This document shows positions 47,842 to 63,929 of a stretch of DNA of 64,000 nucleotides, piece by piece (position 1 is the first letter of the stretch; every line of letters begins with the position of its first letter). Position numbers and translations under genes: made by a program. The notes beneath the pieces were generated by a model, which ran no database searches, had not been told where the DNA came from, and worked only from the letters and a program-made list of their open reading frames with translations. Origin of the DNA: Ethanoligenens harbinense YUAN-3 (GTDB lineage: Bacteria > Bacillota > Clostridia > Oscillospirales > Ethanoligenentaceae); the NCBI RefSeq assembly GCF_000178115.2, contig NC_014828.1, positions 2,431,501-2,495,500 of the forward strand, read 5' to 3'.

Positions 47842-48927
47842 ATGGAAATGGAAACTCAGAGCCGGATCGGGAAAGCCGTGAGAACAAAGACCCGCACACA
47901 CGACGGGGCCGACCATCTGGACATCCCGGTTCTCCCGCTCCTGATTGTCTCACTGATTGTCCTGTTTCTTCTTTCCATCAATTTGGGCAGATTCGGTATC
48001 CCCATCGACCAATTCGCCGGTTTCGTTCTGGATAAAACGTTTGGCATGCATTTTTCTTATCCCGCAACGATTGAAACTGTGCTGATGAACATCCGCATCC
48101 CGCGCATCTTCGCCGCGATCTTAGTGGGCACCGCGCTCTCTGCATCGGGCGCATCCTATCAGGGTCTGTTCAAAAACCCAATGGTCTCGCCCGATATTTT
48201 GGGGGCGGCTGCCGGCGCGGGCTTCGGAGCGGCGCTTGCGATCCTCCTTTCTTTCAACACCGTGGGCATCCAGATTTCCGCATTTGCTTTCGGCCTGCTC
48301 GCGGTCATGCTTTCTTATCTGTTGAGCCGTGCCATCGGCAAAGGCAGCAATGTAATCCTGATTCTGGTGCTGACCGGCATCGTCATGGAATCCATGTTCG
48401 CCGCGCTGACATCGGCCATCAAATATGTCGCCGACCCGGACAGCAAGCTGCCGGAGATCACATTCTGGCTCATGGGCAGCCTGTCGCGCCTGCTCGGCAT
48501 GGGGGATATTCTGAAGCTTCTGATTCCGGTCGGGATCGGCATTCTGCCGCTTTACCTTCTCCGCTGGAAAATCAATGTACTTTCCTTCGGAGAGGAAGAG
48601 GCCATCGCGATGGGTGTTAACACCAAAAGACTCCGGTTGGTCATCATCGCCTGCTCTACGCTGCTGACGGCCTGCGCGATCTCCGTCAGCGGGATGGTCG
48701 GGTGGGTCGGCCTTGTGGTGCCGCATATTTCCCGCATGCTGGTCGGGCCGAACTACAAAAAGCTGCTGCCGGTCTCCATGGTCACGGGCGGTATCTTTTT
48801 ACTCGCCGTCGATGATGTGGCCCGCAGCGCAATTTCGATCGAGATTCCGCTCGGTATCTTGACGGCGTTGATCGGGGCTCCGTTTTTTGTCTTCTTGCTG
48901 CTGCGCGGCAAGAAAGGGTGGCTGTAA
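47842..48927 (+). CDS. FecCD/BtuC-type ABC transporter permease
   Basis: 361 residues with about ten membrane helices. Family motifs: LMNIRIPRIFAAILVGTALS, GASYQGLFKNPMVSPDILG and GWVGLVVPHISRMLVG, the coupling helix to the ATPase. This importer class handles iron-siderophores, haem, B12 and, in some anaerobes, molybdate or tungstate. The binding lipoprotein follows, but no ATPase gene does. The position just before the V-nitrogenase operon suggests metal uptake for it. AAGGTGG precedes the ATG. Confidence 0.93.
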   Translation: MEMETQSRIGKAVRTKTRTHDGADHLDIPVLPLLIVSLIVLFLLSINLGRFGIPIDQFAGFVLDKTFGMHFSYPATIETVLMNIRIPRIFAAILVGTALSASGASYQGLFKNPMVSPDILGAAAGAGFGAALAILLSFNTVGIQISAFAFGLLAVMLSYLLSRAIGKGSNVILILVLTGIVMESMFAALTSAIKYVADPDSKLPEITFWLMGSLSRLLGMGDILKLLIPVGIGILPLYLLRWKINVLSFGEEEAIAMGVNTKRLRLVIIACSTLLTACAISVSGMVGWVGLVVPHISRMLVGPNYKKLLPVSMVTGGIFLLAVDDVARSAISIEIPLGILTALIGAPFFVFLLLRGKKGWL

Positions 48928-49010
48928 AACATCCTCACGCGCGGTTCGGCTCGCCTGGGCTTCTGTAAATCGATATACAACCATACAACAAAAGAAAGCA
49001 GGGGAAGCAA

Positions 49011-50177
49011 ATGTTTCAAAAGGAAAGAGAATGTAAAATCACAGGGCCGTTCCGGCTCCTGCTGCTGGCTTTGTGCTTCGCGCTGCTGTTTACGTTATAT
49101 GGATGTGCAAGCACAAACACAAAGATATCCGCCACTTCCTCGACTGATTCGAGCAGCACGACCAGAGTGGTCACCGATATGGCGGGCAGAAAGGTGACCA
49201 TTCCCAAAAACGTCACTCGGGTCGTCTCGCTGAGCAACAACACCTCGGTCGACACCTACATACTGGCCCCGGATAAACTGCTGGGCTGGAGCTTTACGCC
49301 CAAGACCGACGCAAAGCCCTATATCGACGACAAATACTTCAACCTTCCGGTGCTTGCGACCGACACCTCCAATTCGGCAAATTTTGAGAACATCATCGCA
49401 CTCAAGCCGGATGTGATTATCTGCTCCAATGAGGACGAGGTGTATCAGCCGGACGAACTGCAGTCCAAACTGGGCATTCCGGTCGTCTATGTGGATATTG
49501 AGCTAAAAAACACCGCGAAGGTTTACACTTTCCTAGGCGATGTGCTCGGTGTTCAGAGCCGCGCGAAAAAGCTTGCGGACAGCACGACAAAGGCGCTCGG
49601 CACGGTGGAAAAGGCAATGGCCAAAATTCCGGCCTCCAAAAAGCGCAAGGTTTATTACGCGGAAGGCGCCGATTGGCTTCAGACGGACATTTCGGGCAAT
49701 GTGCACGCGCAGGTCATCGATGTGGCGGGCGGCATCAATGTGGCGAACATCTCGGAGGACAAAACCGGCTCGATGGCGAAGGTCTCGCTGGAGCAGGTGA
49801 TTGCGTGGAATCCGGATGTCATCCTCGTGGGCGCGACCGCCGCAAAAGGCGGCTTCTATTCCAAAGTGTATTCAACGCCGGCATGGGCCGCCATCAACGC
49901 TGTGAAGAACAAACAGATCTATCAGATCCCCTCACTCCCCTTCAACTGGTTTGACCGCCCGCCGTCCGCCACGCGCATCCTCGGCGTGGAGTGGCTCGCA
50001 AACCTGCTCTATCCGGACACGGTGAAGCTGGACATGAAGAGCGAAACCAAAACGTATTACAATCTGTTCCTCCACAAAACGATCACCGACCAACAGGCAA
50101 GCGACATCCTGAACGTGGTTTCCTCCACGTCTTCCTCCAGCGCGTCTTCTGCAGCTTCTTCGACGGCGTCCAAATAA
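49011..50177 (+). CDS. ABC transporter metal/chelate-binding lipoprotein
   Basis: 388 residues. Lipoprotein signal with lipobox LYGC (Cys32), then a class III (BtuF/FhuD-like) binding protein: VTDMAGRKVTIPKNVTRVVS, the long backbone helix (about 155-185), and AWNPDVILVGATAAKGG. The tail is Ser-rich. It would deliver a metal chelate or oxyanion to the permease encoded 83 bases upstream. It ends 82 bases before vnfH. Ligand unknown; vanadate, molybdate or an iron chelate are the candidates. Confidence 0.9.
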   Translation: MFQKERECKITGPFRLLLLALCFALLFTLYGCASTNTKISATSSTDSSSTTRVVTDMAGRKVTIPKNVTRVVSLSNNTSVDTYILAPDKLLGWSFTPKTDAKPYIDDKYFNLPVLATDTSNSANFENIIALKPDVIICSNEDEVYQPDELQSKLGIPVVYVDIELKNTAKVYTFLGDVLGVQSRAKKLADSTTKALGTVEKAMAKIPASKKRKVYYAEGADWLQTDISGNVHAQVIDVAGGINVANISEDKTGSMAKVSLEQVIAWNPDVILVGATAAKGGFYSKVYSTPAWAAINAVKNKQIYQIPSLPFNWFDRPPSATRILGVEWLANLLYPDTVKLDMKSETKTYYNLFLHKTITDQQASDILNVVSSTSSSSASSAASSTASK

Positions 50178-50259: not shown

Positions 50260-51087
<828 letters not shown>

Positions 51088-51233: not shown

Positions 51234-51551
51234 ATGAAAATGATTCGTGCGATTGTCCGTCCGGAAAAAGCCACGGACATTACCGATGGACTTTCCGAAG
51301 CCGGTTTCTATTCCATGACCAAATTCAACGTATTTGGCCGCGGCAAGCAGAAAGGCATCTCGGTCGGGCAGGTGCACTATGACGAGCTGCCTAAAACCAT
51401 GATCATGGTTGTGGTGGACGACGATGCGGTAGACGACGTCATCAAGGCCATCAGTTACAAGGCATACACCGGCAATTTCGGAGACGGCAAAATTTTCGTG
51501 AACACCGTGGACAATGCCTATACGGTGAGAACCGGCAAAAAAGGCCTATAA
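51234..51551 (+). CDS. nifI1: PII-like nitrogenase regulator NifI1
   Basis: 105 residues. GlnB/PII fold with MKMIRAIVRPEKATDITDGL, the T-loop region FNVFGRGKQKGISVG and GDGKIFVNTVDNAYTVRTG at the C-terminus. NifI1 and NifI2 form a complex that blocks the nitrogenase when 2-oxoglutarate is low, as known in methanogens and Firmicutes. It sits between H and D, the usual place. GGGAGGATTTTT precedes the ATG. The T-loop lacks the uridylylated Tyr of GlnB. Confidence 0.92.
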   Translation: MKMIRAIVRPEKATDITDGLSEAGFYSMTKFNVFGRGKQKGISVGQVHYDELPKTMIMVVVDDDAVDDVIKAISYKAYTGNFGDGKIFVNTVDNAYTVRTGKKGL

Positions 51552-51576: not shown

Positions 51577-51948
51577 ATGAAGGAGATCATCGCGATCATC
51601 CGCCCCAACAAAATGGAAAAGACCAAAGAGGCGTTGGACCGTCTCGGCTTCCCCAGCTTCACAGCTTCAGCCGTGATGGGGCGCGGCCACCAAAGGGGCA
51701 TTGCAGGTGAGGTTACGACGCCCATTGATACCAAAATGAAAGCTGCTGAAAAGGGCATCGGCATGAAGTTTATCCCCAAACGGATGATTTCGATTATTGT
51801 CGATGACAACAGCGTGGATGAGATACTAAAAACACTGATCGCCGTCAACCAAACCGCTCAAATCGGCGACGGCAAAATTTTTGTCTGCCCGCTTGAAGGT
51901 GCAGTCAGAGTCAGAACCAACGAAACAGGCACGGATGCGCTTATTTGA
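51577..51948 (+). CDS. nifI2: PII-like nitrogenase regulator NifI2
   Basis: 123 residues, longer than NifI1 as usual. PII fold: IIAIIRPNKMEKTKEALDRL, an extended T-loop (SAVMGRGHQRGIAGEV followed by TTPIDTKMKAAEKGIGMKF) and IGDGKIFVCPLEGAVRVRTNE. Works with NifI1, 25 bases upstream. ACGGAGGCAGACGTA precedes the ATG. Confidence 0.92.
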   Translation: MKEIIAIIRPNKMEKTKEALDRLGFPSFTASAVMGRGHQRGIAGEVTTPIDTKMKAAEKGIGMKFIPKRMISIIVDDNSVDEILKTLIAVNQTAQIGDGKIFVCPLEGAVRVRTNETGTDALI

Positions 51949-51961
51949 TTTCTAAGCATGA

Positions 51962-53464
<1,503 letters not shown>

Positions 53465-53466
53465 AT

Positions 53467-53805
53467 ATGTCGGAAAAAACCGAACAGCTCTTTCTGTATC
53501 TGCAGGAGCGCTGCCTGTTTCAGTTCCATTCCCGCTCGTGGGACAGAGAAGAAAACATCCATGTCACCTGCGAGGATCTGGTCAAACTGCTGACCGGTGA
53601 AAAAGTCCTCCGGGAAACTCCGGAAGACCGGTGCCACTATGCGGACGCCGTTTTGCTGGCTGAACAAGTCAAGGAGAAATTTCCCTGGATGCTCAAGCTC
53701 AGCGATGATGAGCGGCGTGACGTGATCCAGGGGGCATTTGAAAAACTCATGGACGTGACGGTAACCAATTCCCGCAACGCAGAATTGAACAACGAAAATT
53801 ACTGA
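53467..53805 (+). CDS. vnfG: Alternative nitrogenase delta subunit
   Basis: 112 residues from ATG at 53467, nine bases after AAAGGG and two bases past the vnfD stop. HSRSWDREENI is the hallmark of AnfG/VnfG, and the C-terminus TVTNSRNAELNNENY also fits. Only V- and Fe-only nitrogenases have this subunit, so it rules out a Mo enzyme. It binds the alpha subunit and may help cofactor insertion. Confidence 0.92.
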   Translation: MSEKTEQLFLYLQERCLFQFHSRSWDREENIHVTCEDLVKLLTGEKVLRETPEDRCHYADAVLLAEQVKEKFPWMLKLSDDERRDVIQGAFEKLMDVTVTNSRNAELNNENY

Positions 53806-53835: not shown

Positions 53836-55221
<1,386 letters not shown>

Positions 55222-55953
55222 GCGCCGGCCTCTTCCGTCGGCTATAGCGGGCGGACTGTATCCTGCCAAATGGAACGGCAGGCGCCCGGTGCGGAAGTCG
55301 GATATCAATGGGGATATCCTGTCCATCCCTGAATACGGCGAAGGCCGCTCCCATACAGGCAAAACCGCTTTGCGATGGAACAGCCGTTCTTTTGGTCATC
55401 GCCCGCTCTCTTCCACGCCTTGTTTAAAAGCAGACGATCCATCGGTTTGAAAAGTACGGACAAGGCCTAATGAATATGGGAAAAGCGCTGGTAGCCCATG
55501 CTATCGGCGCTTTTTCCCAACGTGAGCAAGCCGATTGGGGCTTTGCATGCGGGCCCTTGGCGCTTCAAACGCTTTGTTTGCGGGCAAATGGCACTGCTTC
55601 CCGAGAATACACCCTGTCGCAACGGAATTCCCCAAAACGGCCGGATGTTTCAGTGAAAACGTGAAGATATCGAACGAAATTTGACAGTCACCATCAAAAT
55701 ATTGCAAACCTCCCAAATATGTGATAAGGTGTTTTACAACAAAACGGCACAAAAAGCAACAAATTGATTCATATCTTGACGGAATCTGCCGGGCAGAATC
55801 AAACGTAACGCATCATTACGAGATTTATCCGGCATGCAGCTCCAGGTATCCAAAACCGCCGTACGGTTCCGCCGATAACGCGTGATACGCCGAAAGCCGG
55901 GGGACGGCCCGTTTCAGAGTGACAAGCGACAGAACGCCTATGGAGGGATGCTT
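55222..55953. other. Long non-coding gap inside the nitrogenase island
   Basis: 732 bases. It contains a long hairpin (55478-55518) and an AT-rich segment (55670-55800) with TTGACA near 55682 and TTGACG near 55777, neither with a good -10 box at the right distance. Short frames have no ribosome site. It separates the structural operon from the assembly genes. Confidence 0.45.
55478..55518 (+). terminator. Long hairpin after vnfK, probable terminator
   Basis: GGGAAAAGCGC (55478-55488) pairs with GCGCTTTTTCCC (55507-55518); the inner bases extend the stem to about 18 pairs with two G-U pairs and a CCAT loop. The T run lies in the 3' arm rather than after it. It sits 257 bases past vnfK. Confidence 0.5.
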
Positions 55954-56175
55954 ATGAATTCGTATTCACACCTCACAAACGCGATGCTACAACGTGGGGT
56001 TCAACTCAAAGACATTGCTTCTGTACTTCAAGCGAGCGATACGACGGTATATAAAAAGATCCACGCGGAGACCTCCTTTACGTTTGAAGAGGCCAAAAAA
56101 ATACAGTCGGAACTCTTCCCGGATCTTTCGCTCACGTATCTGTTTGAAATCCAAGAAAAAATCTCTCCATATTAA
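55954..56175 (+). CDS. Small helix-turn-helix protein
   Basis: 73 residues from ATG at 55954, seven bases after GGAGGG; ATG at 55948 is too close to the site. HTH: VQLKDIASVLQASDTTVYKKI, then a helix FTFEEAKKIQSELFPD. It is like an XRE/Cro HTH with little else. It lies between the structural and assembly genes of the nitrogenase island, 75 bases before the E-like gene, so a local regulatory role is reasonable but unproven. Confidence 0.65.
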   Translation: MNSYSHLTNAMLQRGVQLKDIASVLQASDTTVYKKIHAETSFTFEEAKKIQSELFPDLSLTYLFEIQEKISPY

Positions 56176-56250: not shown

Positions 56251-57786
56251 ATGTCCGGCATCACCAAGGACCAGATCGTTTTTCATGGCAAGCTCAGCGA
56301 ACTGTACCTGCTTGCCAAAGAAGGTAAAATTCCAACACACCTTCAGGGCAGCCATACGCGTCCCTGCAAATTCTGGACGGCGACCAAAGTCCTCAGCGGC
56401 ATCCGGAATGCCGTAATCATCACCCACGGGCCGAGCGGCTGCGCATACGGCGTCAAGCAGGCCTATAAACTGACGAACTGCCGCAACAGCGGTTCGTATT
56501 ACGAGCCTGTCGTCAGCACCGACGCGGATCTGAACACCGTCATCTACGGCGGCGAGCGAAACCTGCGCGAAGCCATTCTGGAGGTCGACCGGAAATACCG
56601 CCCGGAGATCATCATCGTGGCGACGAGCTGCGCCACCGGCATCATTGGCGACAATGTGGATGCGGTCGTCGGCAAGCTGAAAGGCGAGATTGGTGCTGAA
56701 ATCATGCCGATTCACTGTGAGGGCTTCGCGGGCGACTACCGTACCGGGTTCGACCTGGTTTTTGAGCAGATCGTCGATTTCATGGAGCCCCCCACGCCGG
56801 AAAAGCGGGAAACCTTAAAGCACAGTGTCAACATTGTCGGCGCGAAAATGGGGCCGGAACGGACCGAAGTCGATACCGACGTAAAAGAACTGGTGCGACT
56901 CATCCACGGGATGGGCGCCGACGTGCACGCGGTCATCGCGGGCAACTGCACGCTCGCGCAGCTCAAGGCCGCGCCGAGCGCCGCCGTCAACTGTGCGCTC
57001 TGCCTCGACCTGGGCTACCCGATCGGCAAAGCCATGCGCGATAAGCACGGCACGCCGCTCAATTCGACCATCCTGCCATACGGCATCGCCGCCACTGAAA
57101 AATGGCTGATGGGCGCCGCCAAACATCTCGGTATGGAGGAACAGGCACAGGCGTTCATGCAGGCGGAATATGACGCGGTAAAAGAGGAATATGAGGCGGC
57201 GAAGCAATATCTGGAAGGGAAACTGGCCATTGTCGAAGGGCACGATGCGATCAAATCCCTGTCCATCGCACACATGCTGGAAAAAGATTTTGGCATGCGC
57301 CCGGTCATCTACAATTTTCATCCCTGGAGCGCGCAGGCGCGTGAAACGAGCATCGATTACCTGCTTGAAACGGGCGTAGACCCGGAAATCCTCATCACCA
57401 AAGGAACGCTCGCCTTTGGCAAATACGAATCCATGCAGCAAACAGAGGAAGAACTCATGGCTTTCCTCGGCAGCACGAATCCGGCCGAAACGGTCTATTT
57501 CGGTTCGTCGCTGAGCTTTCCGCACATCCCGCTGGTGGATCTGAACGCCATTCTCAACCGTCCGCGCTTTGGCTACCGCGGTGCGCTCAAGGTCGCGGAA
57601 TGCATCACCACATCGCTCGCATACGCATTCCGGCCGCGCAGCAGCCTGACAAAACAGATTGTATTTCCCAAAAACGCGGGGCTGGCTTCCGGGGCGTCGC
57701 TCACGTCCAAGCTTTCCAACGAGTTGCCGGACTGCACGATCTACGCGGAACACAGAAGGGGGCGAGGCCAATGTATGATGAACTGA
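56251..57786 (+). CDS. Divergent NifE/VnfE-like cofactor scaffold subunit
   Basis: 511 residues of the nitrogenase component 1 fold. Cluster Cys39 (TRPCKFW), Cys64 (HGPSGCAYG) and Cys127 (ATSCATGIIGDN). Cys248 in AAVNCALC aligns with the cofactor Cys257 of VnfD. The position of the cofactor His423 is Asn432 in VDLNAILNRPRFGYRG, as in NifE (LDIN...FGYAG), so this is a scaffold rather than an enzyme. Overall similarity to standard NifE is low. It overlaps the N-like gene by 16 bases. With its partner it would finish the cofactor from the NifB product. Confidence 0.72.
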   Translation: MSGITKDQIVFHGKLSELYLLAKEGKIPTHLQGSHTRPCKFWTATKVLSGIRNAVIITHGPSGCAYGVKQAYKLTNCRNSGSYYEPVVSTDADLNTVIYGGERNLREAILEVDRKYRPEIIIVATSCATGIIGDNVDAVVGKLKGEIGAEIMPIHCEGFAGDYRTGFDLVFEQIVDFMEPPTPEKRETLKHSVNIVGAKMGPERTEVDTDVKELVRLIHGMGADVHAVIAGNCTLAQLKAAPSAAVNCALCLDLGYPIGKAMRDKHGTPLNSTILPYGIAATEKWLMGAAKHLGMEEQAQAFMQAEYDAVKEEYEAAKQYLEGKLAIVEGHDAIKSLSIAHMLEKDFGMRPVIYNFHPWSAQARETSIDYLLETGVDPEILITKGTLAFGKYESMQQTEEELMAFLGSTNPAETVYFGSSLSFPHIPLVDLNAILNRPRFGYRGALKVAECITTSLAYAFRPRSSLTKQIVFPKNAGLASGASLTSKLSNELPDCTIYAEHRRGRGQCMMN

Positions 57787-59117
57787 CTTTCGAAGACTGC
57801 TCCCACAGCAAGGACCCGCTGATGAGCTGCGCATTGGAGGGCGTTGCCAGCATCATTGCGGGCATCGGCAACGTCAGCGTGGTCATTCATTCCCCACAGG
57901 GGTGCGCGGCGACCGTAGCGGCGGCGTATGATACCCACGAGATTGATTTTACCCACCGGAAAACCGCCTGCACACATCTGTTTGAAACCGACATCGTGAT
58001 GGGTGCGACCGACAAGCTGGCACAGATGATCAAGGAGGCGGACCAAAAGTTTGCGACCAAGGTCATCTTCGTCGTAGGCACCTGCGCGGCCGACATCATC
58101 GGCGAAGACATCGAGGGGCTCTGTGCCTCCATTCAGCATGAGGTCGACGGCATACTGATCCCCGTCGTCGCCGGCGGATTCCGCGGCAACAAATACGACG
58201 GAATGGATATCGGGCTTGCCGCCTTTACCCGCTTCATCCAGAAGAAGGGCGAGACCATCCCCAAAAGCGTCAACCTCATCTGCCCGCAGGCAAGCCTGAA
58301 CCCGACCTGGGGCGCCGACCTGAAATGGATGACGGAATGCCTCAAACGCATGGGGGTCCGTGTCCAGTCCGTCATCTCGCACGATACCACCATGCGCGAA
58401 ATCGAGGGGGCGGGTCGCGCGTCCGCCACCATTCTGCTCAGCCATGACGCCGGATATAAATTTGCCAAAAAGCTGGAGGCGGATTTTGGAATCCCGCTGA
58501 TCTTATCCGACATTCCTCTCCCCATCGGCATCACGAATACCAAACGCTTTCTTCGCGCTCTTGCCGACACCTTCGACGCGCATGAGGAAGCGGAAAACAT
58601 GATCGAAGCCGGTGAGAAATACGTCATCGACATCCTGCGCCGCCGTGCGCTGATGATTATCCCGCGATATCGCAACTGCAGAGTGGCCATCTCCACGGAC
58701 GCAACCTTCGGCATCGGCCTGACCCGCATGCTGTTCGAGGAGTTGGAGATGATCCCCACCCTGATCCTGCTGCGCAGCGGCAGGGAGGAAGCCAAACGGC
58801 TCTTGGAAAGCGAACTGGAAAGCATGGGGCTCAAGGCGAAAGTCGCTTTCGCGGCGGACGGCTACCAGACCAAACGCGCGCTGCAGGAGGCAAATGTCAG
58901 CGCCGTCATCGGTTCCTCCTGGGAGTCCTATCTGGCAAAAGAGGTGGGCATCCAGGTGGGGTTCGATCTGTTTTTGCCGACGAACCGCGACGTTTACTTA
59001 GACAAAGCGTATTTCGGTTTTACCGGCATGCTCAACATGATGGAGATCATGGGGAACGACTGGGAACGCGCATTTCGTTCCGACAACATCCTGTGGGAAC
59101 AATACGACAATATCTAA
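57771..59117 (+). CDS. Divergent NifN/VnfN-like cofactor scaffold subunit
   Basis: 448 residues from ATG at 57771 (GGGGGCGAGG upstream); the frame stays open to 57600 inside the E-like gene. Nitrogenase beta-like fold. Cys20 (PLMSCALEG), Cys45 (HSPQGCAA) and Cys105 (VGTCAADIIGED) sit at all three P-cluster places, whereas Azotobacter NifN keeps only one. Together with its partner that makes six Cys, enough for a P-cluster-like [8Fe-7S] cluster. It overlaps the E-like gene by 16 bases and lies four bases before nifB. Confidence 0.72.
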   Translation: MYDELTFEDCSHSKDPLMSCALEGVASIIAGIGNVSVVIHSPQGCAATVAAAYDTHEIDFTHRKTACTHLFETDIVMGATDKLAQMIKEADQKFATKVIFVVGTCAADIIGEDIEGLCASIQHEVDGILIPVVAGGFRGNKYDGMDIGLAAFTRFIQKKGETIPKSVNLICPQASLNPTWGADLKWMTECLKRMGVRVQSVISHDTTMREIEGAGRASATILLSHDAGYKFAKKLEADFGIPLILSDIPLPIGITNTKRFLRALADTFDAHEEAENMIEAGEKYVIDILRRRALMIIPRYRNCRVAISTDATFGIGLTRMLFEELEMIPTLILLRSGREEAKRLLESELESMGLKAKVAFAADGYQTKRALQEANVSAVIGSSWESYLAKEVGIQVGFDLFLPTNRDVYLDKAYFGFTGMLNMMEIMGNDWERAFRSDNILWEQYDNI

Positions 59118-59121
59118 GGCG

Positions 59122-60390
59122 GTGAAAGAAGTGATTCAAAACTCTGCGGCGGCAAACCTGGAAAAAACAATGAACCATCCCTGTTATAACTGCGGGGCTT
59201 CCCAAAACGCACGCATCCATCTGCCGGTGGCGCCCAAATGCAACATCCAGTGCAATTACTGTGTCCGGCAATTCGATTGCGTCAACGAATCGCGGCCGGG
59301 CGTCGTAAGCGCCGTGCTGACACCCGGGGAGGCCGTATCCCGGTATTTTGAGGCAAAAAAGACCATACCGAATCTGACGGTTGCCGGCATCGCCGGCCCC
59401 GGTGACGCGCTTGCCAACTTTAAAGAAGTCCGCGAGACACTGCGGCAGATTCGGCAGCGCGACCCGGATGTAACCTTCTGCCTGTCCACCAACGGGCTGA
59501 TGCTCCCGTTCTACGCGAACGATCTGCTCGCCCTTGGCGTGAGCCATGTGACGGTAACGATGAACACGGTGGACGCCGCCGCGGGCGCGAATATCTACGA
59601 CCACATCAACTACCTCGGCAAGACCTATACGGGTGCGGACGGTGCGGCCATCCTGCTGCAAAACCAGCTTTCCGGCATCCGTTACCTCGCCGAGAAAGGC
59701 GTTGTCCTCAAGGTCAACATCGTGCTGCTCAAGGGCATCAACGAGCATCAGATCGAAGATATCGTCCGCACGGCAAAGGACTGCGGCTGCAGAATCACCA
59801 ATATCATGCAGCTCATCCCGGTCAGCGGCAGCAAATTCGCGCACATGGAGCCGGCCGGCAATGCGGATCTGAACCGGATCCGCAAGCAAAGCGCGGACAT
59901 CCTGCCCCAGATGTACCACTGTAAGCAGTGCCGCGCGGACGCAGTGGGCGCCCTGGAAAACGATCTTTCCCGCCAATTCGGCGGGAAAAGCGACGACGAT
60001 AAGGCGGCCGGCGTCAAAGGCCGCTACCGTTTCGCGGTATGCTCCGTGGATGGCACACGGGTCGATCAGCACTTCGGACACGCGGAGCGATTCCTGATCT
60101 ACGATTATCGGGACGGCGCGGTTCGCTTTGTGGAGGCAAGACCGGTCGAGAAGTACTGCGCCGGCCCCGACCAGGCCGACGAAGAGGATCAAATTGCCAA
60201 AGCGGTCAAAACCATCGACGAATGCGATTGCGTCGTCTGCATGCGCATCGGGAACCATCCATCCCATGTGCTCCGCGACAAAGGGCTGGAGATTTTCACG
60301 ACCTACAATCAAATTGAGGGTGCCCTGAAGGAAGCGGCTGAAACGCTGGCATCAAGGGAGGCAGTCGGCGTGCCCGCGGCTTGCGGCTGA
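59122..60390 (+). CDS. nifB: Nitrogenase cofactor biosynthesis protein NifB
   Basis: 422 residues. Radical SAM motif CNIQCNYC (Cys40, 44, 47), with the NifB-specific HPCYNCGASQNARIHLPVAP upstream and AGPGDALANF. A C-terminal NifX/NafY-like domain (about 305-400) begins at RYRFAVCSVDGTRVDQHFGH. It builds the 8Fe core with central carbide (NifB-co). GTG at 59122 is taken as start; GTG at 59131 is nearly as good. Four bases follow the N-like gene stop. Confidence 0.94.
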   Translation: MKEVIQNSAAANLEKTMNHPCYNCGASQNARIHLPVAPKCNIQCNYCVRQFDCVNESRPGVVSAVLTPGEAVSRYFEAKKTIPNLTVAGIAGPGDALANFKEVRETLRQIRQRDPDVTFCLSTNGLMLPFYANDLLALGVSHVTVTMNTVDAAAGANIYDHINYLGKTYTGADGAAILLQNQLSGIRYLAEKGVVLKVNIVLLKGINEHQIEDIVRTAKDCGCRITNIMQLIPVSGSKFAHMEPAGNADLNRIRKQSADILPQMYHCKQCRADAVGALENDLSRQFGGKSDDDKAAGVKGRYRFAVCSVDGTRVDQHFGHAERFLIYDYRDGAVRFVEARPVEKYCAGPDQADEEDQIAKAVKTIDECDCVVCMRIGNHPSHVLRDKGLEIFTTYNQIEGALKEAAETLASREAVGVPAACG

Positions 60391-60442: not shown

Positions 60443-61513
60443 ATGATCGCGGTCGATTTCTCAGACAGCACGGTCGAATGTGCAGTGCAGCGGCAACTGC
60501 CTTCCTCCGAAATTGAGAAGATGTGCGAAACGCTTGGCCGATATGCCGTTTCATGCTTCGACATCCGCCTCGATGCCTACCGGCGGTATCTGTCCACGGG
60601 CAACACACCGGGCACCGGGCGGATGCGATGCATGGTAGGCACCGCCGTGGAAGATGCCGTGCAGGCGGCTGATTTCCGGCAGGTTACAGTCTGCGTGCAT
60701 CAGGCCGACCCAAACGGGTTGAAAGGCCTTGCCGCTGTCGTGCGCGCCGTCAAACCCGGAGATGTATATCTCTGCCTGGAGGACGCCTGGAGAATGCAGC
60801 CGGGCGAATGGGAACCCATTTTTACGTTTACGGAGCGGTATGGCATAAAGGGCATTGTCTATTGTTCGGAAGGGGCCGAGGATCTCTTCGGCCTTTTCGA
60901 GCGACTGCGCGCCCTCGTTCAAAACGCGCCCTGTCCGGTCGAATTCAAAGCCTCAAATGCTTTCCGCATGGCCACCGCGCAGACCCTTGCGGCGCTCCGG
61001 GCAGGCGTCGGCCGGGTTGGGGTGTCTGCGGCCGGAGCCGGATGCCGCGCCCCGCTGGAAGAGGTGCTGATGGCAGCCGGGCATCTGTGGAACGTGAACA
61101 TTCCCTCTTGCCGGACACTGGCAGAAGATTTCCGCGCGGTCCTTTCCATGCTGGACATCCGCGTGCCGGCGCGGAAGGCCCTGATCGGGCCAAACATCTT
61201 TGCCCATGAATCCGGCATCCATGTGGACGGCATCGTCAAAAACCCTTCGCTTTATGAGGTGATTCGGCCGGAGGATGTGGGGCTGACGCGTCGGCTCGTC
61301 ATCGGCAAGCACTCGGGGAACGCCTCCGTACGCATCAAACTGTTACAGCATGGCATCCGGCTTTCGCGGCAGGACGCCGCGGCGCTGCTCGACAAGGTCA
61401 GGATACTGGCGCATCGGCAGAAGCGGCCGTTGACCGACAACCAACTGCTCGGGCTTTATGAAAAATACACCGTGAAAGGGAGCCTGGAGCATGTCGGCTG
61501 CAAAAACTTTTGA
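60443..61513 (+). CDS. nifVω: Split homocitrate synthase, omega (C-terminal) part
   Basis: 356 residues. The first ~220 residues look like a worn TIM barrel without the catalytic DTTLRDG motif. The rest is the homocitrate synthase C-terminal domain: GPNIFAHESGIHVDGIVKNP and VIGKHSGNASVRIKL. Clostridium pasteurianum has such a split NifV, where omega and alpha work together. It overlaps the alpha gene by 23 bases, so translation is coupled. Product homocitrate is the organic ligand of the cofactor. Confidence 0.88.
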   Translation: MIAVDFSDSTVECAVQRQLPSSEIEKMCETLGRYAVSCFDIRLDAYRRYLSTGNTPGTGRMRCMVGTAVEDAVQAADFRQVTVCVHQADPNGLKGLAAVVRAVKPGDVYLCLEDAWRMQPGEWEPIFTFTERYGIKGIVYCSEGAEDLFGLFERLRALVQNAPCPVEFKASNAFRMATAQTLAALRAGVGRVGVSAAGAGCRAPLEEVLMAAGHLWNVNIPSCRTLAEDFRAVLSMLDIRVPARKALIGPNIFAHESGIHVDGIVKNPSLYEVIRPEDVGLTRRLVIGKHSGNASVRIKLLQHGIRLSRQDAAALLDKVRILAHRQKRPLTDNQLLGLYEKYTVKGSLEHVGCKNF

Positions 61514-62324
61514 GCTTGTGGACACAACACTTCGCGACGGGGAACAACAGGCGGGTCTGGTCTTTTCGATGCGAGAGAAGCTTACGCTCGCAAAAGCGCT
61601 GGATCGCGCGGGCATTCGCTGCATCGAGGCCGGTATCCCCGCGATGGGCTCATTTGAGCAACAGACCATGCGGGAGTTGATAAAACTCCGCCTGAATGCC
61701 AGGCTGATCGCCTGGAACCGGGCCAATCGCAGCGACATTCTCGCCTCGGTCGCGTGCGGCTTTTCGTGGATCCATATCTCCCTTCCGGTCTCCGACCTGC
61801 AGATCCGGGACAAGCTTGCCAAAAACAGGGAGTGGGTGCTCCGGGCGCTTTCACAGACCATTGCATTTGCCCGGGCACAGGGCTGCCGCGTGACGGTCGG
61901 CGCGGAAGACGCCTCACGGGCGGACCTCGGCTTCTTTTTGAAATTTGCAGAGGTTGCCGCACAAAGCGGCGCGGAGCGCATCCGCTTTGCGGATACGGTC
62001 GGCTGCCTTGAACCGTTTTCCGCGTACGAAAAGCTGAAACAGGCCGGGGAACGGTGCCCGCTCCCCATCGAATTTCATGGGCACAACGACTTTGGGCTTG
62101 CGTTGGCCAATACCCTGGCGGCCAAAGAAGCCGGCATCCCCTATGCCAGCTGCACGATCTCGGGCATCGGGGAGCGGGCGGGCAACGCCTGCCTGCAGGA
62201 TGTGGCCGCCATGCTGAACCGGAATGACCCAGGCTGCTGCGCGGTCGACACGGCTGAGCTTGCACGGGCCGAAGCCATCATTCCGCCGCCCCGCAACGAT
62301 CTTTCCGGTTTGAAAATATCATAA
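61491..62324 (+). CDS. nifVα: Split homocitrate synthase, alpha (catalytic) part
   Basis: 277 residues. The catalytic TIM barrel: ELVDTTLRDGEQQAG (residues 8-22), metal-binding HGHNDFG (about residue 190), GRVTVGAED-like strand (RVTVGAEDASRAD) and GIGERAGNACLQDV. It condenses acetyl-CoA with 2-oxoglutarate. The usual ~370-residue NifV has a C-terminal domain that here is in the preceding gene. GGGAGCCTGGAGC precedes the ATG inside the omega gene. Confidence 0.9.
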   Translation: MSAAKTFELVDTTLRDGEQQAGLVFSMREKLTLAKALDRAGIRCIEAGIPAMGSFEQQTMRELIKLRLNARLIAWNRANRSDILASVACGFSWIHISLPVSDLQIRDKLAKNREWVLRALSQTIAFARAQGCRVTVGAEDASRADLGFFLKFAEVAAQSGAERIRFADTVGCLEPFSAYEKLKQAGERCPLPIEFHGHNDFGLALANTLAAKEAGIPYASCTISGIGERAGNACLQDVAAMLNRNDPGCCAVDTAELARAEAIIPPPRNDLSGLKIS

Positions 62325-62344
62325 AAACAAAGGAGTGTTACGTG

Positions 62345-62971
62345 ATGCAAATCGCAGTGATAGAAAACAACGAAGGAAAAACCCATTCCATTTTCGAGCC
62401 GGGTTTTCTTGCGGTCTACGAGCATGAGAACAAAGAGTGGAAGGAACTGAGCCGGAAAGAAAACCCCGTTCCAGATGCACAGGGTATCGCGGCCGTTCGG
62501 CAATCCCTGTCGGATGTGGTGGAAAGTCTGCCCCATGTCCGCATCCTCATTGCGAGCGATCTTTCAGGCGTTGCCTTCAGCATTTTTGAAAGCGCAGGCT
62601 TTGAAATCTTTTTGGTGAAGTCCGACGCCGCTTCCGCTCTCGCATCGGTGCGGAAAACCATTTTGGAGGATCAGAAAGAAAGCGAGTCCGCCAACAATGT
62701 GGACATCTCACAGTTCTTTGAGCACGGGACCAACAAGGGCGATTTCGTCGTGAACCTGCAACAGGCACAGATGGCCTACCCGCAGCTATCTTCCAAAAAA
62801 ATCCTGCTCGATCATGTCAAGCGGGGCGAATTCAATCGGCTCGATGTCATCGTATCCCATACGCCCAAGTGGTTCGACCGGGAGCTTCCTCTGATGGGGT
62901 TCCAATACGAGACCGTCAACATCCTGCCCGATAAAAAAACTCTGCGGGTCAGCCACGCCCCTCTAATGTAA
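62345..62971 (+). CDS. anfO: AnfO-family alternative nitrogenase accessory protein
   Basis: 208 residues. MQIAVIENNEGKTHSIFEPG is the AnfO family start, and DLSGVAFSIFESAGFEIF fits its middle. AnfO is found with Fe-only nitrogenase operons and is needed for full activity there; its presence next to a VnfD-like subunit is a mixture of the two types. AAAGGAG lies nine bases before the ATG; GTG at 62342 is an alternative. Function in the cofactor or maturation path is unknown. Confidence 0.8.
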   Translation: MQIAVIENNEGKTHSIFEPGFLAVYEHENKEWKELSRKENPVPDAQGIAAVRQSLSDVVESLPHVRILIASDLSGVAFSIFESAGFEIFLVKSDAASALASVRKTILEDQKESESANNVDISQFFEHGTNKGDFVVNLQQAQMAYPQLSSKKILLDHVKRGEFNRLDVIVSHTPKWFDRELPLMGFQYETVNILPDKKTLRVSHAPLM

Positions 62972-62984
62972 GGCGGTGCTTGCG

Positions 62985-63929
62985 TTGGAAACGGCCATTA
63001 CCAAATACGGCGCGTTCGAGGACATCGGCCTCTCGGATTATTTTGAGAACGGAGCGCTCAGGCGCTGCATCGTCAGGCAGGAATACAGAGTGACTCTGCC
63101 CTGCGGCACCTTCATTCCGCAATATCTGGACGACGGCAACCGGAAGAAACTGCTCAAGTCCATGACGTTTTACGCAGGCGGCGCGCTGTCCTCGTTGATC
63201 CTGCAACAGACAGAGCAGGTGCAAACCAGTCTCGGCAGCCTGCCCGCGGAGATGGTCACCTTTTATGAAAGCGGCGCGGTCAAGCGCATCTTTCCCACCT
63301 TCGGCAGCATTTCAGCTTACTGGACGGAGTCGGATGAGCAGGCTCTTTCACCCACTCTGGATTTCGATCTGCCGGTCTGCGCGTTTTCGGGCAAGGTCAT
63401 CAACATCGCCTTCTATGAGACGGGAGAGCCCAAGAGCCTGACGCTGTGGCCGGGAGATTCCGTCTTTGTCAAGACGCCCCTGGGTACCATGCAGACGCGC
63501 ATCGGTTTCTGCCTGTATCCGGATGGTTCTGTCCGATCCGTGGAGCCGCCCGTCCCCGCTGAAATCAATACGCCCATCGGCCGGATTCCGGCGTTCGACC
63601 CGGATGCGATCGCACTCGACGGCGAGGCCAATTCGCTTGTGTTTGCCCCAAACGGCGCGATCGAGTCCCTCCTGACCTGTACGGCAAAAGTCGTTGCGGC
63701 CGACCGGCATAACAAACAAACCGTCCACGCGCCCGCTTTTCAAAGCAGTTTCTATTTTGACGACAGGCAGGCGGTCGCGCCGATGAAGGTCCGGTTTTCC
63801 GACGGTATAGTTTCGTTCGGGAGACGAAAAGGCCCGGCGGCTGCCGTATATGACATAGACGGGAGCGCCTTCCGAATCGAACCGGTCAGCATTGCCCACT
63901 GCGCGAACATCTGCGACGCATGCGAGTGA
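62985..63929 (+). CDS. Unknown protein of YwqK/MORN-like beta-hairpin repeats
   Basis: About 314 residues from TTG at 62985, eight bases after AAGGCGG; GTG at 62976 overlaps the site. At least five repeats have the pattern F/Y-x-x-G-x-[VIL]-[KR]: YFENGALRRCIV, FYESGAVKRIFP, FYETGEPKSLTL, LYPDGSVRSVEP and FAPNGAIESLLT. No signal peptide or catalytic motif. The C-terminus has CANICDACE, a possible metal site. Being the last gene of the nitrogenase operon, 13 bases after anfO, it likely helps nitrogenase or metal handling, but I know no function. Confidence 0.6.
   Translation: METAITKYGAFEDIGLSDYFENGALRRCIVRQEYRVTLPCGTFIPQYLDDGNRKKLLKSMTFYAGGALSSLILQQTEQVQTSLGSLPAEMVTFYESGAVKRIFPTFGSISAYWTESDEQALSPTLDFDLPVCAFSGKVINIAFYETGEPKSLTLWPGDSVFVKTPLGTMQTRIGFCLYPDGSVRSVEPPVPAEINTPIGRIPAFDPDAIALDGEANSLVFAPNGAIESLLTCTAKVVAADRHNKQTVHAPAFQSSFYFDDRQAVAPMKVRFSDGIVSFGRRKGPAAAVYDIDGSAFRIEPVSIAHCANICDACE

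Follow-up and report, generated by a model that had tools for sequence, protein, structure and literature searches.

A VnfEN pair of the Anabaena/Paenibacillus type in the vanadium nitrogenase cluster of Ethanoligenens harbinense YUAN-3

Two overlapping genes of Ethanoligenens harbinense YUAN-3 encode VnfE and VnfN of the Anabaena/Paenibacillus/clostridial type, a known but little-studied family, and very likely specify the scaffold on which the FeV-cofactor is finished for VnfDGK. They lie within the window, i.e., the whole 64-kb stretch of DNA analyzed here (positions 2431501-2495500 of a single-contig genome of 3.0 Mb), in which no Rfam match was found. The vnfE-type gene (56251..57786, + strand) specifies an alpha-type subunit of 511 aa and the vnfN-type gene (57771..59117, + strand) a beta-type subunit of 448 aa, which fell on the beta side in a joint tree; both proteins match PF00148. 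Translation of vnfN starts at the ATG at 57771, resulting in a 16-bp overlap with vnfE, and the mechanical ORF start of the N-like frame (57600) falls within vnfE. An earlier note on this DNA had delimited the pair exactly (56251-59117) and described it as very divergent, which is confirmed by our searches. The best NCBIfam model for both subunits was nifE, at 150 (E) and 145 (N) bits for a cut-off of 505, and the NifEN equivalog cut-offs were missed by far (E, 149.6 of 505.1 bits for nifE; N, 32.5 of 326.8 bits for nifN). The same note had also placed the pair far from VnfEN, and this has to be withdrawn, as the pair is the published Anabaena/Paenibacillus-type VnfEN. Both subunits joined the cyanobacterial and Paenibacillus vnfEN products in one clade (100/100 for E and for N), which, for VnfEN of this type, is the placement that the note had named as speaking against its reading.

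The pair follows directly an operon of the order vnfH-nifI1-nifI2-vnfD-G-K, all genes of the cluster being on the + strand. The Fe protein gene vnfH (50260..51087; TIGR01287, 458 bits over cut-off) precedes genes for PII regulators of the nifI1 (51234..51551) and nifI2 (51577..51948) types, both recognized by PII models and conserved in vnf loci. The structural genes are vnfD for the V-nitrogenase alpha subunit (52073..53464; TIGR01860, 922.6 bits, cut-off 823.1), vnfG for the delta subunit (53461..53805; TIGR02930, 128.9 bits, just below the cut-off of 141.7, and 88.2 for anfG), and vnfK for the beta subunit (53836..55221; TIGR02932, 830 bits with a cut-off of 874, versus 728 for anfK). Downstream of vnfN lie a nifB-nifX fusion (59122..60390; TIGR01290, 390 bits over cut-off, with PF04055 and PF02579) and the two halves of a split homocitrate synthase, nifV-omega (60443..61513; TIGR02660 in part, HCS_D2) and nifV-alpha (61491..62324; HMGL-like). 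Reading this region as an Anf cluster was ruled out by the score of the VnfD model, 922 bits versus 738 for AnfD. Besides the vnf cluster, the host genome carries a nif cluster of the conventional kind and a further nitrogenase-like pair; none of its ten component-1 genes is left over for an Anf enzyme.

Family membership of the window pair is evident from its identity to proteins of other vnf clusters. VnfE is 86% identical to the UBA1320 protein and 74-75% to a Nostoc vnf-cluster protein; as a pair, VnfEN shares 75% (E) and 60% (N) identity with the pair behind vnfK on Nostoc plasmids, and 74% (E) and 62% (N) with the Paenibacillus zanthoxyli JH29 pair. A tblastn search of plasmids returned three Nostoc records at 75% identity, and in the two that were opened E-like and N-like genes lie directly behind vnfDG and vnfK. 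No proteobacterial vnfD occurred among the best plasmid matches, the one plasmid record examined for Azotobacter/Rhodopseudomonas VnfEN carried no component-1 gene, and scans of viral contigs found no relative. Among 84,980 species genomes scanned, 59 loci were identified, hosted by cyanobacteria, Bacillota, Desulfobacterota, Methanosarcina, Methanothrix, and Archaeoglobus; one record labeled Fibrobacter is a short contig that may be misbinned. This distribution rules out a family confined to clostridia. The earlier idea that the pair evolved with a clostridial alternative nitrogenase thus survives in its link to vanadium nitrogenase but not in its restriction to clostridial hosts. Linkage to vnfDGK was constant: vnfK is upstream of E at all 50 loci with enough upstream sequence (within 1.2 kb at 48 of them), and N is downstream of E for 55/55 usable E genes. 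The window pair resembles VnfEN of Anabaena variabilis/Nostoc and P. zanthoxyli JH29 in this gene order behind vnfDGK, in the interface cysteines, and in the C-terminal tail. Its cluster differs in having a clostridial host, separate vnfD and vnfG genes (they are fused in cyanobacteria), and nifB and the split nifV as further members behind the pair. In Nostocales cyanobacterium HT-58-2 (CP019636.1, 4862183-4883675), vnfD, vnfK, and vnfE are each split into several frames, and the vnf cluster is apparently decaying.

The vnf cluster of A. variabilis includes vnfEN, for cofactor synthesis (PMC6645180), and PMC8406325, citing Thiel 1996, describes these genes as essential for V-nitrogenase. An operon carrying the P. 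zanthoxyli JH29 pair makes V-nitrogenase in a nifBHDKEN deletion host, the operon minus vnfEN makes none, and vnfEN outperformed nifEN in this operon (PMC8287671). A genetic requirement of VnfEN or NifEN for V-nitrogenase has been shown in these close relatives; the role is thus established at the level of the family and extended from it to the window pair, which might be replaceable by the cell's own NifEN. We know of no purified member of this VnfEN lineage. The working that we propose for VnfEN is based on analogy with NifEN, its model (PMC13128457, PMC13031127), and on NifB, NifV, and VnfH being encoded alongside. VnfE and VnfN would form a nitrogenase-shaped complex that receives NifB-co ([8Fe-9S-C]), the product of the neighboring NifB, and moves it into the Cys251 pocket of VnfE. 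On VnfEN, and with the help of VnfH, one apical Fe of NifB-co would then be exchanged for V and homocitrate from the neighboring split NifV would be added, before the finished FeV-cofactor passes to apo-VnfDGK. The tetramer form, the chemistry, and the cofactor flow of the window pair are predicted on this basis, and V insertion on VnfEN is an inference in the literature as well (PMC11938142).

The descent of the pair was assessed with mixture-model trees, one per subunit, plus a joint tree and AU tests. The E family fell outside the NifD/NifE/VnfD/AnfD clade and the N family outside the NifK/NifN/VnfK/AnfK clade (100/100 each), while the joint tree assigned E to the alpha and N to the beta side (100/98). 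AU tests rejected grouping of E with NifE (p 0.003), NifD (0.004), VnfD (2e-46), and VnfD+AnfD (0.005), as well as grouping of N with NifN (9e-80) and VnfK+AnfK (6e-8). The pair is therefore no duplicate of NifEN or of VnfDK, and the scaffold lineage separate from NifEN that the earlier note had suggested is borne out by trees and tests alike. The VnfEN of Azotobacter vinelandii and Rhodopseudomonas palustris, of the same name and role, are set apart from the window type by their descriptions as products of a recent nifEN duplication (PMC3733012, PMC7216921); the grouping with NifE and NifN that marks the Azotobacter type is among those rejected above. Such duplications also lend some plausibility to a fast-evolving ordinary NifEN or VnfDK duplicate drawn to a deep position by long-branch attraction, and the stems are indeed long (1.8 and 1.4 changes per column), with a warning from the tree program on long branches meeting. 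We nevertheless regard this explanation as improbable, given that each subunit was excluded independently at 100/100, that the AU tests reject the groupings it would require, and that VnfE/N is deep in a Nature 2025 study, too (PMC12176620), as a separate branch whose order relative to group VI is unresolved there. Since the stems are long, we claim no exact sister group. Nor is the separate lineage new from this window, because that study had presented VnfE/N, the V-nitrogenase maturase, as an early branch before; its VnfE/N presumably is the family described here. A NifEN origin of VnfEN, as given in reviews, is thus rejected for the non-proteobacterial form; if the published Azotobacter origin holds, V-cofactor scaffolds consequently arose more than once.

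Structure models suggest that the nitrogenase component-1 fold is conserved in the pair. The single-chain model of N reached a pLDDT of 84, with MarK as best neighbor by TM-score (0.83), and that of E, a low-confidence model (pLDDT 68), had MarD as best structural neighbor (9fmg_A, E 5e-21). MarDK, the nearest in fold, also matches the pair in the placement of the cofactor cysteine and of all six P-cluster cysteines. Together with the position of the pair outside Nif in the tree, this retention would suit a catalytic reductase of the Mar kind, holding a P-cluster and [8Fe-9S-C] and acting on a substrate of its own, whose location in the vnf cluster is incidental. Such an enzyme is very improbable, however, in view of the constant linkage to vnfDGK, the genetic requirement for the pair in the V-nitrogenase of relatives, and the absence of any dedicated H subunit gene apart from vnfH. 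Moreover, the nitrogenase-like DK pairs formed a well-supported clade of their own (98/95, 99/99) that leaves the window pair outside, in a set without a named Mar sequence. Genomic context and the genetics of relatives point instead to V-cofactor assembly, unlike the reductase activity of MarDK. The further nitrogenase-like component-1 pair of the host (genome positions 1852529-1855121) fell within this nitrogenase-like clade, together with pairs from Chlorohelix and Ruminiclostridium.

The scaffold reading leaves the type of metal cluster at the subunit interface to be considered. VnfE carries Cys39, Cys64, and Cys127 (spacings 25/63) and VnfN Cys20, Cys45, and Cys105 (spacings 25/60); the earlier note had named the three of VnfN and counted six P-cluster-like cysteines in the pair. 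All six occupy P-cluster columns and are invariant in an alignment of 54 E and 57 N sequences (E, 53/53, 54/54, and 54/54 readable; N, 57/57 each); VnfN has Cys67 and Cys118 as further invariant cysteines. The pair thereby has the set expected of P-cluster proteins, with three cysteines per subunit at these positions. The six do not set the pair apart, though, as had been supposed from a NifN that keeps a single cysteine. That count applies to Azotobacter-type NifN only, whereas all three beta-side cysteines are kept by 14/14 clostridial NifN, the host's own (1697579-1698883) included, and by 7/10 NifN from VnfEN-bearing genomes. The 14 are the distinct NifN recognized among the 30 best loci in a 391-genome sample of the class; two of the three cysteines were lost only in two cyanobacterial NifN and in the NifN of a Paenibacillus genome. 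Because clostridial NifN share these positions, the six-cysteine set is neither distinctive nor a unique mark of the pair, and ordinary clostridial NifEN may by the same token hold an 8-Fe cluster. MarDK, with the same set, binds a P-cluster, and the six cysteines are inferred to be ancestral (PMC12552129). On that view, their retention is an old state common to clostridial NifEN, with no special acquisition.

The six invariant cysteines of VnfEN probably hold an Fe-S cluster, and as far as residues go a P-cluster is compatible with them. Whether the predicted cluster has eight Fe is about evenly balanced. A VnfEN with a [4Fe-4S] cluster like that of Azotobacter NifEN, its six cysteines notwithstanding, is nearly as credible as not: A. 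vinelandii NifEN functions with such a cluster held by three NifE cysteines (PMC13031127), and cluster type is not fixed by residue counts. The full conservation of all six positions across phyla and the P-cluster of MarDK argue to the contrary. If the scaffold has the ancestral P-cluster, this would point to a later loss in Azotobacter NifEN as the source of its [4Fe-4S] state.

VnfEN has in common with NifEN of Azotobacter, clostridia, and methanogens the role in cofactor maturation, the fold, the cofactor cysteine, and the three alpha-side interface cysteines, and with clostridial NifN the three on the beta side; it departs from them in lying far below the NifE/NifN model cut-offs and outside both clades. 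The cofactor pocket adds to these differences. In hmmsearch and MAFFT alignments, Cys251 of VnfE stands opposite NifD Cys275 and NifE Cys250. Cys248, to which the earlier note had assigned the cofactor, is present but lies three residues before Cys251 and is, like Cys233, an invariant, family-specific cysteine. The cofactor His is absent, as claimed, and N432 is invariant in the VnfE family; its identification as the replacement is ambiguous, since the counterpart is L431 or N432 in an ungapped reading and a gap in the L-INS-i alignment. Tyr/Phe take the place of the catalytic Gln191/His195 of NifD, which fits a scaffold role.

Both ends of VnfE are also unlike those of NifE. The N-terminal cysteines that dock NifB-co in A. 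vinelandii NifE are C15 and C25 (PMC13128457), and the compared NifE have 1-4 cysteines before the first interface cysteine, whereas 13/14 VnfE have none. At the C terminus, VnfE has a tail (residues ∼464-511) with Cys495, kept in 50/54 VnfE, and Cys508, kept in 50/54 with truncated sequences as three of the exceptions; no other group compared has a tail of the same form. The tail, which is of low confidence in the model, may serve cofactor docking. A bolder proposal would make VnfE/N a third, independently evolved scaffold with, in contrast to Azotobacter NifEN, a retained 8Fe-7S P-cluster, in which a Cys495/Cys508 arm and a Cys233/Cys248/Cys251 pocket take up NifB-co in place of the N-terminal arm; we consider this unlikely. 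For the widespread non-proteobacterial VnfEN, the map of conserved residues is now clear.

Several neighbors of the scaffold genes deserve mention. An AnfO-family protein (62342..62971, + strand; PF09582, 188.6 bits) is encoded in the vnf cluster of a host genome without Anf structural genes, and 11 further vnf loci of Bacillota have homologues. AnfO protects the FeFe protein of A. vinelandii from wrong cofactors (PMC11938142); the window protein may therefore be its V-nitrogenase counterpart, and is a probable guardian of cofactor fidelity, belonging to the cluster but not to the scaffold itself. It is followed by a gene for a 317-aa protein without Pfam match (62976-63929), a neighbor kept in five other vnf loci. 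The 1-kb gap between vnfK and vnfE contains a gene for a 74-aa protein (55951-56175), weakly helix-turn-helix-like and with a 44% homologue upstream of the UBA1320 vnf cluster, which is possibly a local regulator. Finally, genes for a FecCD permease and a periplasmic binding protein (47842-50177) lie directly upstream of vnfH; homologues are found at many vnfEN loci, and these proteins may transport V or a metal chelate.
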